NCBI RefSeq assembly: GCF_022557175.1 | Contig: NZ_CP092915.1 | Span: 2,480,001 to 2,544,000, forward strand | DNA: 64,000 bases | Source: Mycolicibacterium sp. YH-1 | GTDB taxonomy: Bacteria; Actinomycetota; Actinomycetes; Mycobacteriales; Mycobacteriaceae | Direction of reading: 5' to 3' | Shown here: positions 55,256 through 60,921 of the stretch, one piece after another | How the letters are laid out: each line of letters starts with the position of its first letter | Numbering within the stretch: the first letter of the stretch is position 1 | Notes under the pieces: generated by a model | What the model was told of the DNA's origin: nothing | Seen by the model: the letters and a program-made list of their open reading frames with translations, nothing else | Databases searched by the model: none | Position numbers and translations under genes: made by a program

Positions 55256-56494
55256 TCAGCGGCGGGCGTAGGCCGGTGCATGCTCCGGCAGCGGGCCGAT
55301 GGCCACGCCGTACGCAGCCACAGCCCCCAACGCGGGGAATCTGTTGACCAGGCGCACCGCCCGCGGCGCGGTCCGCAGGCCGGTGTCGGTGCCGAGCCCC
55401 ACCGCGATGGCGCGGTCCTGCACCGTGCGCTGAACCCGCTGAATGATGGCCGCGGGCAGCCACCGTCTGGCCTGCACTCCGGCCAGGTGTCTGGTGGTGA
55501 CAGACCGTCGGCGAAGCGGATCGGCGAGGATCCGGCCTGCGGCCACCGCGTCGGCGACGGCCAGGTTGATGCCCACCCCGCCGATCGGCGACATGGCATG
55601 CGCCGCGTCGCCGATGAAGAGCAGCCCGTCGGTGTACCAGCGGCGCAGCCGGTCGAGTTGCACGTCGAGGAGTTTCACGTCGTCGAAGGACTCCAGCGCG
55701 TCGATGCGGTCGGCGAGCCAGGGCACCAGTTCGCAGACCTGACGTCGCAGTGACTCGATACCCTCGGCGCGCATCGCCGCGTCGGCGCCCTTGCGGATCA
55801 GGTAGGCGATCTGGAAGTAGTCGCCGCGGTCGATCAGCGCGCAGCCGTGTCCGGACCGAAAGATGCCGTTGAGGCCGTGCGGGTCGCCGGCATGACGGGG
55901 CAGACGGAACCACCACACGTCCATCGGGGCGCCGAAACTGCGGGTCGCGAGCCCGGCGGCCGCGCGCAGGGTCGAGGACCGCCCGTCGCAGCCGACGGTC
56001 AAATCGGCCCGCATCTGCGCCTCCGCGCCGTCGGCGCCTCGGTAGCGCACCCCTGTGACGCGGCCCCCTGACCGCACCGGACCGAGAACCTCGGTGCTGC
56101 GCATCAGGCGGAAGGTTGGCTCGTCCTGCGCCGCGCTGGCCAGCAGCTCCAGGAAGTCCCACTGGGGGACCAGTGCGATGTGCTTGTGCGGGCCGGGCAA
56201 CCGGGTCAGGTCCACCTTGACCGTGGTGTCCTGGATGGTCGCGTTGACACTGTCGATCATCCGGTGCGGGAGGGCGGCGAACTCGTCGCCGAGACCCAAC
56301 TCGTCCAACAGGCGCAGCGTGCTGGCATGCACGGTGTCACCGCGGAAGTCGCGCAGGAAGTCGGCGTGCTTCTCCATCACCGTGACGTCCACCCCGGCCC
56401 GGGCGAGCAGTAGACCCAGCATCATCCCCGCCGGACCACCGCCCGCGACCAGGCACGTCGTCACATCGAGAGGAGCCTTGCCGGGGTCCGCCAT
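55256..56494 (-). CDS. FAD-dependent aromatic-hydroxylase-type monooxygenase
   Basis: 412 aa. It has GGGPAGMMLGLLLARAG near the N-terminus (FAD ADP-binding), VGCDGRSS (DG motif) and LLFIGDAAHAMSPIGGVGIN (GD motif), the three fingerprints of group A flavin monooxygenases. ATG 56494 is preceded by CAACGCC with no clear ribosome-binding site. It is divergent from a small membrane protein with 12 bases between possible starts. Substrate unknown. Confidence 0.9.
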   Translation of the reverse strand: MADPGKAPLDVTTCLVAGGGPAGMMLGLLLARAGVDVTVMEKHADFLRDFRGDTVHASTLRLLDELGLGDEFAALPHRMIDSVNATIQDTTVKVDLTRLPGPHKHIALVPQWDFLELLASAAQDEPTFRLMRSTEVLGPVRSGGRVTGVRYRGADGAEAQMRADLTVGCDGRSSTLRAAAGLATRSFGAPMDVWWFRLPRHAGDPHGLNGIFRSGHGCALIDRGDYFQIAYLIRKGADAAMRAEGIESLRRQVCELVPWLADRIDALESFDDVKLLDVQLDRLRRWYTDGLLFIGDAAHAMSPIGGVGINLAVADAVAAGRILADPLRRRSVTTRHLAGVQARRWLPAAIIQRVQRTVQDRAIAVGLGTDTGLRTAPRAVRLVNRFPALGAVAAYGVAIGPLPEHAPAYARR

Positions 56495-56506
56495 GGCGTT
56501 GATCGT

Positions 56507-56713
56507 ATGGTGGTCGTGATGAGCGGCATTCTGAATTGGTGGGACGGCGTGGAACTGTGGCTGTCGGGCCTCGGATTCGTCGCGCAGACCGCGGTGGTGA
56601 TGCCCGTGGTCCTGCTTCTCGCCTACGGGATCGCGGTGGTGCTCGACGGGGCGCTCGGCAATGGCATCCGTTTGTTGCGACGCGCCGGGCACACCGGCGA
56701 GGAAGAGGGGTGA
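56507..56713 (+). CDS. 68-aa membrane protein
   Basis: One long hydrophobic segment (FVAQTAVVMPVVLLLAYGIAVVL) follows an amphipathic Trp-rich start (ILNWWDGVELWLSG); the C-terminus is charged. ATGs at 56507 and 56519 are both possible starts. The stop overlaps the GTG of a 28-codon ORF. It matches the small conserved membrane gene between the GH15 and sulfate-transport genes of mycobacteria. Function unknown. Confidence 0.75.
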   Translation: MVVVMSGILNWWDGVELWLSGLGFVAQTAVVMPVVLLLAYGIAVVLDGALGNGIRLLRRAGHTGEEEG

Positions 56714-56796
56714 CCGGCATGCCCCGTTCGCGCGTCACGCTGATCCTGATCCTGTTGGTGGTCCTGGTCATCGTCATGTGGCTGTTCACCCGCTGA
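56710..56796 (+). CDS. 28-aa single-helix membrane protein
   Basis: GTG 56710 overlaps the previous stop (GTGA) and has GGAAGAGGGG upstream. The product VTGMPRSRVTLILILLVVLV continues with IVMWLFTR, a basic N-terminus plus one membrane helix. ATG 56719 is an alternative start. Coupled translation with the 68-aa protein suggests a two-subunit membrane complex. Confidence 0.6.
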   Translation: MTGMPRSRVTLILILLVVLVIVMWLFTR

Positions 56797-56842
56797 TCGG
56801 ATCGTCGGGCTCGCTCGTCTCATGTTCGGCGAACACCTCTGT

Positions 56843-56848
56843 TATTCT
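56843..56848 (+). promoter_or_regulatory. -10 element of leaderless cysteine leader transcript
   Basis: TATTCT fits the TANNNT consensus. Seven bases separate it from the A of ATG 56856, the spacing expected if transcription starts on the start codon. There is no Shine-Dalgarno sequence before this ATG. No clear -35 hexamer is seen, common in mycobacteria. Confidence 0.6.
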
Positions 56849-56855
56849 TCGCGCC

Positions 56856-56948
56856 ATGCACGCAGCGTCCCGCAGCGCCGAGAGCCACATCGTGGCTCTC
56901 GTTGGCGTGGGCTCTCCCGTTGTTGCAGCCGTTCTCTGTTGTCGCTGA
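56856..56948 (+). CDS. Cysteine-containing leader peptide upstream of subI-cysTWA
   Basis: A 30-codon ORF from ATG 56856 to TGA 56946, encoding MHAASRSAESHIVALVGVGS followed by PVVAAVLCCR. The last sense codons are TGT-TGT-CGC, two tandem Cys codons (56937-56942). Leaderless short ORFs ending in Cys runs are described in mycobacteria as cysteine-responsive attenuators of sulfur-assimilation operons. This one sits 114 bases ahead of the sulfate importer. Ribosome stalling at the Cys codons when cysteine is scarce would alter downstream RNA folding. Confidence 0.75.
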   Translation: MHAASRSAESHIVALVGVGSPVVAAVLCCR

Positions 56949-57058
56949 CCCCAGCCCGTTCGCGGTTTGGCGTCAGTCGTGTGGCCAGGGTGCCCGGGAG
57001 CTGATCGATCACCTTTCCGTTGTGACGGGGTAATACTTTCCCTCACCTCTCGAAAGGT
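56879..57058 (+). promoter_or_regulatory. Attenuator-like RNA structures before subI
   Basis: Within the leader ORF 56879-56888 pairs perfectly over 10 bp with 56892-56901 (3-base loop). Bases 56880-56886 (GAGAGCC) can instead pair with GGCTCTC at 56910-56916, an exclusive alternative. Just before subI, ACCTTTC (57011-57017) is complementary to GAAAGGT (57052-57058), which contains the ribosome-binding site. TGATCGATCA at 57003-57012 is a perfect palindrome. There is no U-tract, so control may be at translation or through Rho. Confidence 0.5.
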
Positions 57059-57062
57059 CCCC

Positions 57063-58109
57063 ATGTCCCACATCAAGAAGTCGCTCAACAGCAGGAAGTC
57101 CTGGCTATCGGCCGGTGCCATCGCGCTCACCGCCACGCTGCTCACTGCCTGCGGCGGCGGAGCCAGCGACGTCGCGGGTGGTGACGGAGCGAGCAAGGCC
57201 GACACGACATTGACCCTGGTGGCGTACGCGGTCCCGGAACCCGGTTGGAGCAAGATCATCCCGGCGTTCGCCGCCACCCCGGAGGGCAAGGGCGTCGCGG
57301 TGACGACCTCCTACGGCGCGTCGGGTGACCAGTCCCGCGGCGTCGTCGACGGCAAGCCCGCCGATATCGTCAATTTCTCGGTCGATCCCGACATCACCCG
57401 ACTGGTCAAGGCCGACAAGGTGGCAAAGGACTGGAACGCGGATGCCACCAAGGGCATCCCGTTCGGATCCGTCGTGTCGTTCATGGTCCGTAAGGGCAAC
57501 CCCAAGGGCATCAAGGACTGGGACGACCTGCTCAAGCCGGGCGTCGAGGTGATCACACCCAGCCCCCTGAGTTCGGGTTCGGCGAAATGGAACCTGCTGG
57601 CGCCCTACGCCGTCAAGAGCAACGGTGGCCAAAATCCGCAGGCCGGCCTGGACTTCGTGAACAAGCTCGTCACCGAGCACGTCAAGCTGCGACCGGGCTC
57701 CGGCCGTGAGGCCACCGATGTGTTCCTGCAGGGCAGTGGTGACGTCCTCCTCGCCTACGAGAACGAGGCCATCAACTCCCAGCGCCAGGGCCGCGACTTC
57801 GACTACCTCAACCCTCCGCAGACGTTCAAGATCGAGAACCCAGTCGCGGTCGTCACCAGCAGCGCACACGTCGAGAAGGCCAACGCGCTGAAGAACTTCC
57901 TCTACACCGACGAGGGGCAGAAGCTGTGGGCAGAGGCCGGGTTCCGGCCGGTGAACCCTGCCGTGGCCGAGCAGTTCGCCGCGCAGTTCCCGGCCCCGGA
58001 GAAGCTGTGGACAATCGCCGACCTGGGTGGCTGGACTGAGGTCGATCCCGCACTGTTCGACAAGGACAACGGCACGATCACGAAGATCTACAAGCAGGCG
58101 ACTGGATGA
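57063..58109 (+). CDS. subI: Sulfate-binding lipoprotein of ABC importer
   Basis: 348 aa. A signal peptide with lipobox LLTACGGG (about residue 25-30) is followed by a periplasmic-binding fold of the Sbp/CysP family: TLTLVAYAVPEPGWSKIIPAF, SYGASGDQSRGVVDG, ADIVNFSVDPDI and the YENEAI segment. It captures sulfate (and thiosulfate) outside the membrane for CysT/CysW/CysA. ATG 57063 follows GAAAGG by five bases. Four-base overlap with cysT. Confidence 0.95.
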   Translation: MSHIKKSLNSRKSWLSAGAIALTATLLTACGGGASDVAGGDGASKADTTLTLVAYAVPEPGWSKIIPAFAATPEGKGVAVTTSYGASGDQSRGVVDGKPADIVNFSVDPDITRLVKADKVAKDWNADATKGIPFGSVVSFMVRKGNPKGIKDWDDLLKPGVEVITPSPLSSGSAKWNLLAPYAVKSNGGQNPQAGLDFVNKLVTEHVKLRPGSGREATDVFLQGSGDVLLAYENEAINSQRQGRDFDYLNPPQTFKIENPVAVVTSSAHVEKANALKNFLYTDEGQKLWAEAGFRPVNPAVAEQFAAQFPAPEKLWTIADLGGWTEVDPALFDKDNGTITKIYKQATG

Positions 58110-58999
58110 CCACAGCCGTCGACCCGAATCCCGAGGCGGTCCGCCCCGAGGTCACCGGAAGCGGTGCCTCGGGCGGATCTCCCCGGAGGCGGCGGGCATT
58201 CGGCGCGGCACACGGAACCACGGGACTGCGTGTGGGTGCCGCGACCCTGTGGCTGTCGGTGATCGTGCTGCTTCCGCTGGCGGCGATCCTCTGGCAGTCG
58301 GCGGGCGGCGGTTGGAGTGCGTTCTGGAGTGCGGTGTCATCGCCCGCGGCACTGCAGTCGTTTCGTGTCACGCTGACGATCTCGATCGGTGTCACGGTGA
58401 TCAATGTCGTGTTCGGTCTGATCGTTGCGTGGGTGCTGACACGCGATGACTTCCCGGGCAAGCGACTGGTTGACGCGGTCATCGACCTGCCGTTCGCGCT
58501 GCCGACGATTGTCGCCAGCCTGGTGATGCTGGCCCTGTACGGACCGAACAGTCCAGTGGGACTTCACTTTCAACACACTCAGTGGGGCGTGGGGATCGCG
58601 CTCCTGTTCGTCACGCTGCCGTTCGTGGTGCGCTCGGTGCAACCCGTACTGCTCGAACTCGACCACGAGGTGGAGGAAGCCGCGGCGTCGCTGGGCGCCA
58701 ACAACGTGACGATCTTCACCAAGATCATCCTTCCGGCGCTACTGCCCTCGCTACTGTCCGGTGCGGGCCTGGCGTTCTCGCGCGCGATCGGCGAGTTCGG
58801 CTCCGTTGTGCTCATCGGTGGTGCCGTTCCCGGCGAGACCGAGGTCTCCTCGCAGTGGATCCGGACCCTGATCGAGAACGACGACCGCACCGGCGCCGCA
58901 GCCATCTCGATCGTGCTGCTGGCGATCTCGTTCGTCGTGCTGTTCGTCCTTCGGGCGGTCGGATCCCGGGCCGCCAAGCGCGAGGAGCTGGCGCAATGA
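58106..58999 (+). CDS. cysT: Sulfate ABC transporter permease CysT
   Basis: 297 aa with about six membrane helices after a 40-residue cytoplasmic tail. The permease loop is EVEEAAASLGANNVTIFTKIILPALLPSL (EAA motif). It forms the membrane channel with CysW. The ATG overlaps the subI stop and its stop overlaps the cysW ATG, so the operon is tightly coupled. Confidence 0.95.
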   Translation: MTTAVDPNPEAVRPEVTGSGASGGSPRRRRAFGAAHGTTGLRVGAATLWLSVIVLLPLAAILWQSAGGGWSAFWSAVSSPAALQSFRVTLTISIGVTVINVVFGLIVAWVLTRDDFPGKRLVDAVIDLPFALPTIVASLVMLALYGPNSPVGLHFQHTQWGVGIALLFVTLPFVVRSVQPVLLELDHEVEEAAASLGANNVTIFTKIILPALLPSLLSGAGLAFSRAIGEFGSVVLIGGAVPGETEVSSQWIRTLIENDDRTGAAAISIVLLAISFVVLFVLRAVGSRAAKREELAQ

Positions 59000-59808
59000 A
59001 CCTGTCGCCACTGGTTCGCAACCTGCTGCGCTACACCGCACTCGGCTACATCCTGATCCTCGTCATCGTGCCGGTCGGGTTGATCCTGTGGCGCACCCTG
59101 GAACCGGGCGTCGGTGAGTTCATCGCGTCCATCACCACCCCAGCCGCCATCTCGGCGCTGCAGTTGTCCCTGCTGGTAGTGGCGATTGTCGTCCCGCTCA
59201 ACGTGATATTCGGCATTCCGACCGCACTCGTACTGGCCCGCAACAGGTTTCGCGGCAAGAGTGCGCTGCAGGCCGTCATCGACCTGCCGTTCGCGGTGTC
59301 ACCCGTTGTCGTCGGCGTCGCGCTGATCCTGCTGTGGGGTTCTGCCGGCGTGCTGGGGTTTGTGGAGAACGACCTCGGTTTCAAGATCATCTTCGGCCTG
59401 CCCGGCATCGTGCTCGCGTCGATCTTCGTCACCGTGCCCTTCGTCATCCGGGAGGTCGAGCCCGTGCTGCACGAGCTCGGCACCGACCAGGAGGAGGCGG
59501 CATCGACACTGGGCGCGTCATGGTGGCAGACCTTCTGGAAGATCACGCTGCCGTCCATTCGATGGGGTCTGACGTACGGCATCGTGCTGACCATCGCACG
59601 CACGCTCGGGGAGTTCGGCGCGGTGATCATGGTGTCGTCGAACCTGCCCGGAACCTCGCAGACGCTCACCCTGCTGGTCGCCGACCGCTACAACCGCGGC
59701 CAGGAGTACGGCGCATACGCCATCTCAACGCTGCTCATGGGTGTCGCCGTCTTCGTGCTCGTCGCACAGGTGATTCTCGACGCCCGCCGCGCCCGCGCGG
59801 CAAAATAG
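58996..59808 (+). CDS. cysW: Sulfate ABC transporter permease CysW
   Basis: 270 aa, about six membrane helices. EAA loop: DQEEAASTLGASWWQTFWKITLPSI. It ends GVAVFVLVAQVILDARRARAAK. The partner permease of CysT. ATG 58996 overlaps the previous stop. A 27-base gap precedes cysA. Confidence 0.95.
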   Translation: MNLSPLVRNLLRYTALGYILILVIVPVGLILWRTLEPGVGEFIASITTPAAISALQLSLLVVAIVVPLNVIFGIPTALVLARNRFRGKSALQAVIDLPFAVSPVVVGVALILLWGSAGVLGFVENDLGFKIIFGLPGIVLASIFVTVPFVIREVEPVLHELGTDQEEAASTLGASWWQTFWKITLPSIRWGLTYGIVLTIARTLGEFGAVIMVSSNLPGTSQTLTLLVADRYNRGQEYGAYAISTLLMGVAVFVLVAQVILDARRARAAK

Positions 59809-59835: not shown

Positions 59836-60921
59836 ATGACACTCGATGAGCGCTCGCGGGGCGAGCAGCGCAAGAACGCGATCACCGTGCGCGGCGCCAA
59901 CAAGCGCTACGGCGATTTCGTGGCCCTGGACAACATCGACTTCGACGTGCCGGAGGGATCGCTGACCGCACTTCTGGGTCCCAGCGGTTCGGGCAAGTCG
60001 ACGCTCCTGCGCGCCATCGCGGGGCTCGATCAGCCTGATAGCGGCGTCATCACCATCAAGGGCGAGGACGTCACCAATGTGCCGCCCCAGCGACGCGGCA
60101 TCGGCTTCGTGTTCCAGCACTACGCGGCGTTCAAACACCTGACGGTTCGCGATAACGTCGCCTTCGGGCTCAAGATCCGCAAGAAGCCGAAGGCCGAGAT
60201 CAAGGACAGGGTCGACAACCTCCTCGAGATCGTCGGTCTCTCGGGTTTTCAGACCAGGTACCCCAATCAGCTGTCCGGCGGTCAGCGGCAGCGGATGGCC
60301 CTGGCCCGCGCGCTCGCCGTCGACCCGCAGGTGCTCCTGCTCGACGAGCCCTTCGGTGCGCTCGACGCCAAGGTGCGCGAGGACCTGCGCGCGTGGCTGC
60401 GTCGGTTGCACGACGAGGTGCACGTGACGACGGTGCTCGTCACGCACGATCAGGCCGAGGCCCTCGATGTGGCCGACCGCATCGCGGTTCTCAACAAGGG
60501 ACGCATCGAGCAGGTGGGCTCTCCCACCGAGGTGTACGACAGCCCGCAGAGCGCCTTCGTGATGTCCTTCCTCGGCGCGGTGTCATCACTCAACGGCACC
60601 CTGGTGCGGCCCCACGACATTCGCGTCGGCCGCAATCCGGATATGGCGATCGCGCAGGCCGAGGGCAGCATCGCGGCCACGGGTGTGATCCGATCCGTCA
60701 TCGACCGAATCGTGGTCCTGGGCTTCGAGGTTCGTGTCGAGCTGACGAACTCCGCCGACCACACGCCGTTCACCGCCCAGATCACCCGCGGAGACGCCGA
60801 GGCCTTGGGACTCAAGGAGGGCGACACCGTGTACGTGCGCGCCACCCGGGTACCGCCGATTCCCGGCGGCGCCGCCGCGGCTTCGGTGGACCACGAGGTC
60901 GAGACGCTGACCAAAGCCTGA
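59836..60921 (+). CDS. cysA: Sulfate ABC transporter ATP-binding protein CysA
   Basis: 361 aa. Walker [10 protein letters not shown], signature [15 protein letters not shown], Walker [16 protein letters not shown]-loop [10 protein letters not shown], then a C-terminal TOBE domain. It drives sulfate uptake through CysTW. Last gene of the operon. GACCCGATGAC precedes the ATG; a short overlapping atg-aca-tga at 59831 is not a gene. Confidence 0.95.

Follow-up and report, generated by a model that had tools for sequence, protein, structure and literature searches.

Classical attenuators such as the trp leader work by ribosome stalling: a ribosome halted at codons for the end product decides between alternative RNA folds. 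In a study of M. smegmatis, stalled ribosomes reportedly block structures that hide the ribosome-binding site (RBS) of the next gene, and the NCBIfam model NF042937 (“Ms4533A family Cys-rich leader peptide”) is presumably named after Ms4533A of that species and traceable to Canestrari et al. 2020. A prediction of 2005 named mycobacterial Cys leaders at which Rho might terminate transcription (PMC1262725), a 2015 study raised the idea of attenuation from the cysA2 leader (PMC4633059), and a review states that such ORFs could control downstream translation by cysteine-dependent attenuation, for which it credits M. smegmatis (PMC9031893). A M. tuberculosis ribosome-profiling paper speaks of six ORFs predicted to be cysteine-regulatory (PMC9094748). 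The M. smegmatis leader work is cited in a 2026 paper (PMC13236596) and appears in the reference list of a 2021 review (PMC7790235).

We analysed a locus of this kind in a 64,000-nucleotide stretch of DNA (the window, taken as a whole). An ATG at 56856 opens a 30-codon ORF on the + strand whose C-terminus reads Cys-Cys-Arg and whose 3′ end consists of TGT TGT, CGC and a TGA stop codon at 56946-56948. The leader stop and the subI ATG (57063) are separated by 114 nt, and the features of the leader and of the operon are as follows.

56843..56848, + strand: -10 element TATTCT (TANNNT), read from the sequence, 7 nt from the leader ATG
56856..56948, + strand: leader ORF MHAASRSAESHIVALVGVGSPVVAAVLCCR, 25.3 bits against NF042937, 86% DNA identity to the loci L128 and L129
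56937..56942, + strand: putative sensing codons TGT TGT; TGT accounts for 189 of the 200 final-pair codons in 100 distinct leaders
57063..58109, + strand: subI, sulfate-binding protein (TIGR00971, 169.8 bits, cut-off 155.5)
58106..58999, + strand: cysT (TIGR02139, 278.2 bits, cut-off 246.1)
58996..59808, + strand: cysW (TIGR02140, 364.5 bits, cut-off 329.1; scanned from 58990)
59836..60921, + strand: cysA (TIGR00968, 420.4 bits, cut-off 342.75)

The initial annotation had described a 30-codon ORF ending in tandem TGT codons, with a TANNNT -10 element seven bases 5′ of its ATG and no RBS, placed directly ahead of subI-cysTWA. The sequence agrees with this description, the four genes were matched by family models, and no purine-rich Shine-Dalgarno (SD) sequence occurs in the 20 nt 5′ of the leader ATG. 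Contiguous Cys codons near the stop, as in mycobacterial Cys-codon leaderless leaders, are present (TGT TGT CGC TGA), and a sulfur-assimilation operon encoding SubI, CysT, CysW and CysA lies downstream. The -10 spacing suggests that transcription would start at or next to the ATG at 56856; a sigma-70 promoter scan, which also demands a -35 hexamer, found none within 56700-57100. A search for 10-60-codon ORFs that carry CC within the last six residues and start with ATG or GTG 6 to 8 nt after a TANNNT gave this leader alone on the two strands of the 64 kb, and 0 hits in 20 first-order Markov sequences of 64-kb length; conservation in related sequences is the stronger proof of a leader. Just 5′ of the leader promoter lie two small hydrophobic ORFs, 56516-56713 and 56719-56796 (+ strand), which gave no Pfam or NCBIfam match at E 0.001.

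Comparison with other genomes supports the reading as a leaderless-type Cys-codon leader of subI-cysTWA and places it beside an already named NCBIfam family. The leader peptide matched NF042937 over residues 1-29 of 30 (25.3 bits, E 1.3e-5; 23.0 bits in the genome search), below the curated cut-off of 31 bits, and we therefore do not class it as a formal NF042937 member. The ORF at 56856-56948 is the counterpart of the described Ms4533A-type leader, a local copy of an old and known kind that has diverged enough to fall under the threshold. It resembles the Ms4533A family in its place before subI, its length of 30, its start spacing, its final CCR and its alignment over profile positions 1-30, but differs in its score (25.3 of the required 31 bits), in the peptide body (LVGVGxxVVAAV vs LIAVGxxAVADV, four changes) and in lacking a third Cys that was found in 32 of 74 distinct segments. 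The DNA of the leader was 86% identical over 147-148 nt to the same-genus loci L128 and L129, whose leader peptide scores 49.0 bits in NF042937 (the peptides of two relatives reach 49.0 and 56.8 bits). The upstream third Cys of these nearest relatives is absent from the window, which has CCC where L128 has TGC. No match to NF042936 (Ms4527A) or NF042933 (Ms5788A) was obtained at E up to 10, nor any Rfam match for 56400-57400 up to E = 1.

Within the genus, NF042937 matched at E ≤ 0.01 in 91 of 148 genomes (79 above the cut-off), and the DNA of 56800-57065 has a match in 263 of 396 genomes. One same-genus genome, G055, carries two over-cut-off copies of the leader (C1:3841632 and C1:5316232). 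The nearest named loci belong to Mycobacterium and Mycolicibacterium. We compared 80 rows, made up of the window and 79 of 80 named loci (L013 was dropped, as its match begins at the first base of its sequence), and found a leader upstream of subI in 78 of them. In 65 rows, TANNNT stands 7 nt (59 rows) or 6 nt (6 rows) before a CC leader, and 13 more leaders came from a relaxed search. The remaining 15 rows include 12 Nocardia loci with a one-Cys leader and L024, whose 7-codon leader MRTACCR (L024:1933-1956, with TAGGCT seven bases 5′ of the ATG) is the shortest version seen; among the 80 rows a recognisable leader is absent from L082 (a Solirubrobacteraceae MAG) and L085 (Pedococcus). A scan of both strands of L091-L120 and L128-L141 found the leader in 43 of 44 loci and none in L116.

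Cys-rich leaders were also found elsewhere in the same genome, which consists of a single contig of 7,267,399 bases. A leader of the Ms4527A type lies at G000:C1:2548370-2548429 (- strand; 41.5 bits vs a cut-off of 45), and a further one at G000:C1:984434-984490 (- strand) exceeds the cut-off of NF042934 as well as that of Ms5788A; by eye, the latter is followed 3′ on the same strand by a membrane-protein ORF and a rhodanese-like ORF. The Ms4527A and Ms5788A types are thus Cys-rich leaders like the one in the window, one of each being present in this genome, but their peptides are different and they lie at different loci. Two models unrelated to these leaders, NF042935 and NF042938, gave matches below cut-off only.

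We compared the Cys codons of 100 distinct leaders (from 108 records, both strands searched, all selected for CC). The initial annotation had spoken of a minimal two-Cys sensor and had proposed conservation of the Cys codons across species as a check. Two is in fact the usual count (the longest final Cys run is exactly two in 82/100 leaders, and 26/100 have only two Cys in all). TGT is used for nearly every codon of the final pair (TGT 189, TGC 11). The other Cys codons of the same 100 leaders are TGT in 26 and TGC in 78 cases (104 in total), and long ORFs of the loci (at least 250 codons, GC3 > 0.78) have 311 TGT and 1238 TGC; as the GC3 filter leans towards TGC by construction, the remaining Cys codons of the leaders make the cleaner control. 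Because these favour TGC, the TGT bias is tied to the sensing site. Part of the bias may serve a predicted hairpin at the stop codon, whose stem often reaches the second Cys codon, and slower decoding of TGT is our guess for what lies behind it.

We then considered how the RNA between the leader and subI may fold. The following elements are referred to below.

56880..56900, + strand: in-ORF hairpin GAGAGCCAC-ATC-GTGGCTCTC, a perfect inverted repeat
56943..56979, + strand: stop-codon hairpin (predicted fold), with the Arg and stop codons in its 5′ arm
56955..56960, + strand: CCCGTT, proposed anti-sequestering segment, complementary to 57024-57029 with one G-U pair
57011..57017, + strand: anti-SD arm ACCTTTC, paired with 57052-57058 in the predicted fold
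57024..57029, + strand: GACGGG, part of the SD hairpin (predicted fold) and proposed to pair with 56955-56960
57052..57058, + strand: subI SD sequence GAAAGGT, read from the sequence

The stop nucleotides were paired with a value of 0.997 in the window vs 0.522 after shuffling. For the family (74 mycobacterial sequences, loci L091-L120 being covered on the + strand only), the values were 0.866 vs 0.421 with shuffled downstream sequence, with pairing above the null in 71/74, and in the minimum-energy fold at least three of four nucleotides were paired at the stop-codon hairpin in 56/68 sequences. Outside this set, the hairpin gave no consistent picture, being above the null in 5 of 12 Nocardia and 4 of 6 Rhodococcus, in a run in which 7 of the 18 rows were misplaced. 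The subI SD sequence was paired with upstream sequence at 0.826 in the family vs 0.560 after shuffling (higher in 66/74), whereas the window’s own SD helix was no stronger than shuffles (0.504 vs 0.546). The CCCGUY part of the leader forms a predicted downstream duplex stronger than that of shuffles in 88 of 93 sequences, its partner not being fixed to GACGGG, and in a swap test of CCCGUY:GACGGG the cognate value was 12.2 vs 10.4 for swapped partners (sd 0.3), kinship being ignored. Since the short-leader clade is out of alignment register, we relied on these per-sequence tests against shuffles. RNAalifold was run on MAFFT alignments of two regions, with 49 of the 74 sequences left after manual removal of near-duplicates and outliers; it predicted four pairs for one region and no pair for the second, and no pair was compensatory.

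Leaders that carry the LAL motif retain the hairpin within the ORF, and in them the wobble position of an invariant Ala codon tracks its partner (G-C, A-T, C-G, T-G); the variable pair is A/T in the window and G/C in L128. This wobble base is paired in 46/53 ORFs vs a shuffle mean of 23.6 (maximum 38), and in 35/46 distinct cores vs a mean of 20.3 (maximum 32), in permutations that ignore relatedness. The count covers LAL-motif leaders, with 25 leader records without the motif standing outside it and L054 left out.

On this basis, release of the SD sequence by stalling in a leaderless sensory leader is the best explanation and, in our judgement, a probable one. Transcription would begin at or next to the ATG, and ribosomes would start at the 5′ end of the RNA. 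With ample Cys-tRNA, they would pass both TGT codons, terminate at TGA and leave, so that the stop-codon hairpin could form. The SD sequence of subI would then remain paired with the anti-SD arm and little SubI-CysTWA would be made. When cysteine is short, ribosomes would dwell on TGT TGT and cover the start of the 5′ arm, as far as the size of a ribosome footprint indicates, and the hairpin could then not form. The freed CCCGTT would pair with GACGGG in competition with the sequestering hairpin, which would expose the SD sequence, and sulfate import would rise as a result. The cysteine response of the window leader is here carried over from the M. smegmatis work and would hold by analogy.

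Folds computed with a ribosome in place fit such stalling that uncovers the RBS of subI, the predicted shifts being modest on average. When the ribosome occupied the second Cys codon, pairing of the SD sequence fell in 36 of 93 sequences and rose in 10, and downstream pairing of CCCGUY went up in 42 and down in 12. On the first Cys codon, the SD sequence was less paired in 32 and more in 11 of the 93, with CCCGUY pairing up in 40 and down in 11, and on the stop codon the corresponding counts were 28 and 14, and 20 and 19. On average, stalling reduced SD pairing only a little (from 0.767 to 0.674), and the value also fell when the ribosome sat on the stop codon (0.707). In the fold of the window itself, a ribosome on the Cys codons did not clearly free the SD sequence (0.78 before, 0.81 and 0.76 after), and the RNAalifold runs lent the scheme no support.

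As in classical attenuators, stalling on codons of the end product would thus select between RNA folds; the window differs from them by its leaderless-type start, by a probable output at translation initiation and in that no intrinsic terminator was found (0 in 56700-57100, shuffles averaging 0.4, so that the scan has little power). The leaders predicted for mycobacterial cys operons in 2005 are similar, being short ORFs before cys genes with a Cys run near the stop and no conserved terminator, but Rho was proposed there, while sequestration of the RBS is favoured for the window (PMC1262725).

The peptide itself may contribute to the stalling. In leaders that have the motif LALIAVGxxAVADV, its conservation is that of a protein and not of the RNA alone: over codons 4-14, 73 distinct sequences other than the window give a pN/pS of 0.26 (they were admitted by the anchor [LV]AL[IV], so that codon 4 is partly conditioned), and the comparison of Nocardia and Rhodococcus (9 and 5 sequences) with mycobacteria (59) gives 0.25. 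The body would lie in the exit tunnel of the ribosome at the moment of stalling, and a stall-prone arrest peptide acting there, at the Cys codon or codons, would mean that the codons are not the whole sensor. Leaders with a single Cys at the same place in 12 Nocardia (L069, L072, L073, L079, L080, L083, L084 and L086-L090) keep this body and end in LCR, YCR or HCR, the two that were scored in the Ms4533A model reaching 55.0 and 41.3 bits, both over the cut-off. For a pure codon counter such a body would be superfluous, and its retention in Nocardia with one Cys makes a contribution of this type possible. The reading is nevertheless doubtful, as 25 leader records lack [LV]AL[IV], many of them having 16-18 codons yet a final CCR and several of these short ones presumably coming from slow-growing species, as the body in the window has drifted (four changes, pN/pS 0.60), and as the EGHxLAL part of the conservation doubles as the RNA hairpin. 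A tentative extension of it would be that the Ms4533A-type leader is a cysteine-tuned arrest peptide rather than a mere codon counter, in which the work of the body in the tunnel would let a single Cys codon suffice (Nocardia), and that in mycobacteria the Cys codon was duplicated and the rarer codon TGT became fixed, one clade later losing the body and the window copy standing between the two modes.

Compared with release of the SD sequence by stalling, attenuation by Rho seems unlikely. Rho would load on the leader RNA after termination at TGA and halt transcription before subI, unless stalled ribosomes prevent it. Such a route was suggested in 2005 for terminator-less mycobacterial cys leaders by authors who called the case weak (PMC1262725), and the result of the terminator scan of 56700-57100 agrees with it. 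In the relatives, however, pairing within the leader-subI stretch exceeds that of shuffles both at the stop codon and at the SD sequence, which suits control of translation better than Rho.

It is also quite improbable that the leader is translated constitutively, without sensing cysteine, and merely feeds ribosomes to subI. The replacement of the Cys pair by a single Cys in the 12 Nocardia loci would suit such an ORF, but otherwise the two cysteines and their TGT codons persist while much of the peptide varies, and other Cys-rich leaders occur elsewhere in the same genome. Between the leader and subI, the window has an AT-rich stretch, GTAATACTTT (57030-57039), a possible species-specific promoter. 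That this stretch drives subI as an internal promoter, leaving the leader with little effect, is hardly credible, since by eye the other 73 aligned sequences do not have GTAATACTTT at this position and the sigma-70 scan of 56700-57100 found no promoter.

By analogy with the known mycobacterial switch, the leader very likely lets ribosomes sense a shortage of cysteine, and the comparison places a diverged copy, overlooked by the NCBIfam model at its cut-off, in a known system of cysteine control. Two questions also become testable: why genomes rich in GC use TGT for nearly all of the final Cys codons, and whether the conserved body takes part in stalling, for which the single-Cys leaders of Nocardia offer a natural test.
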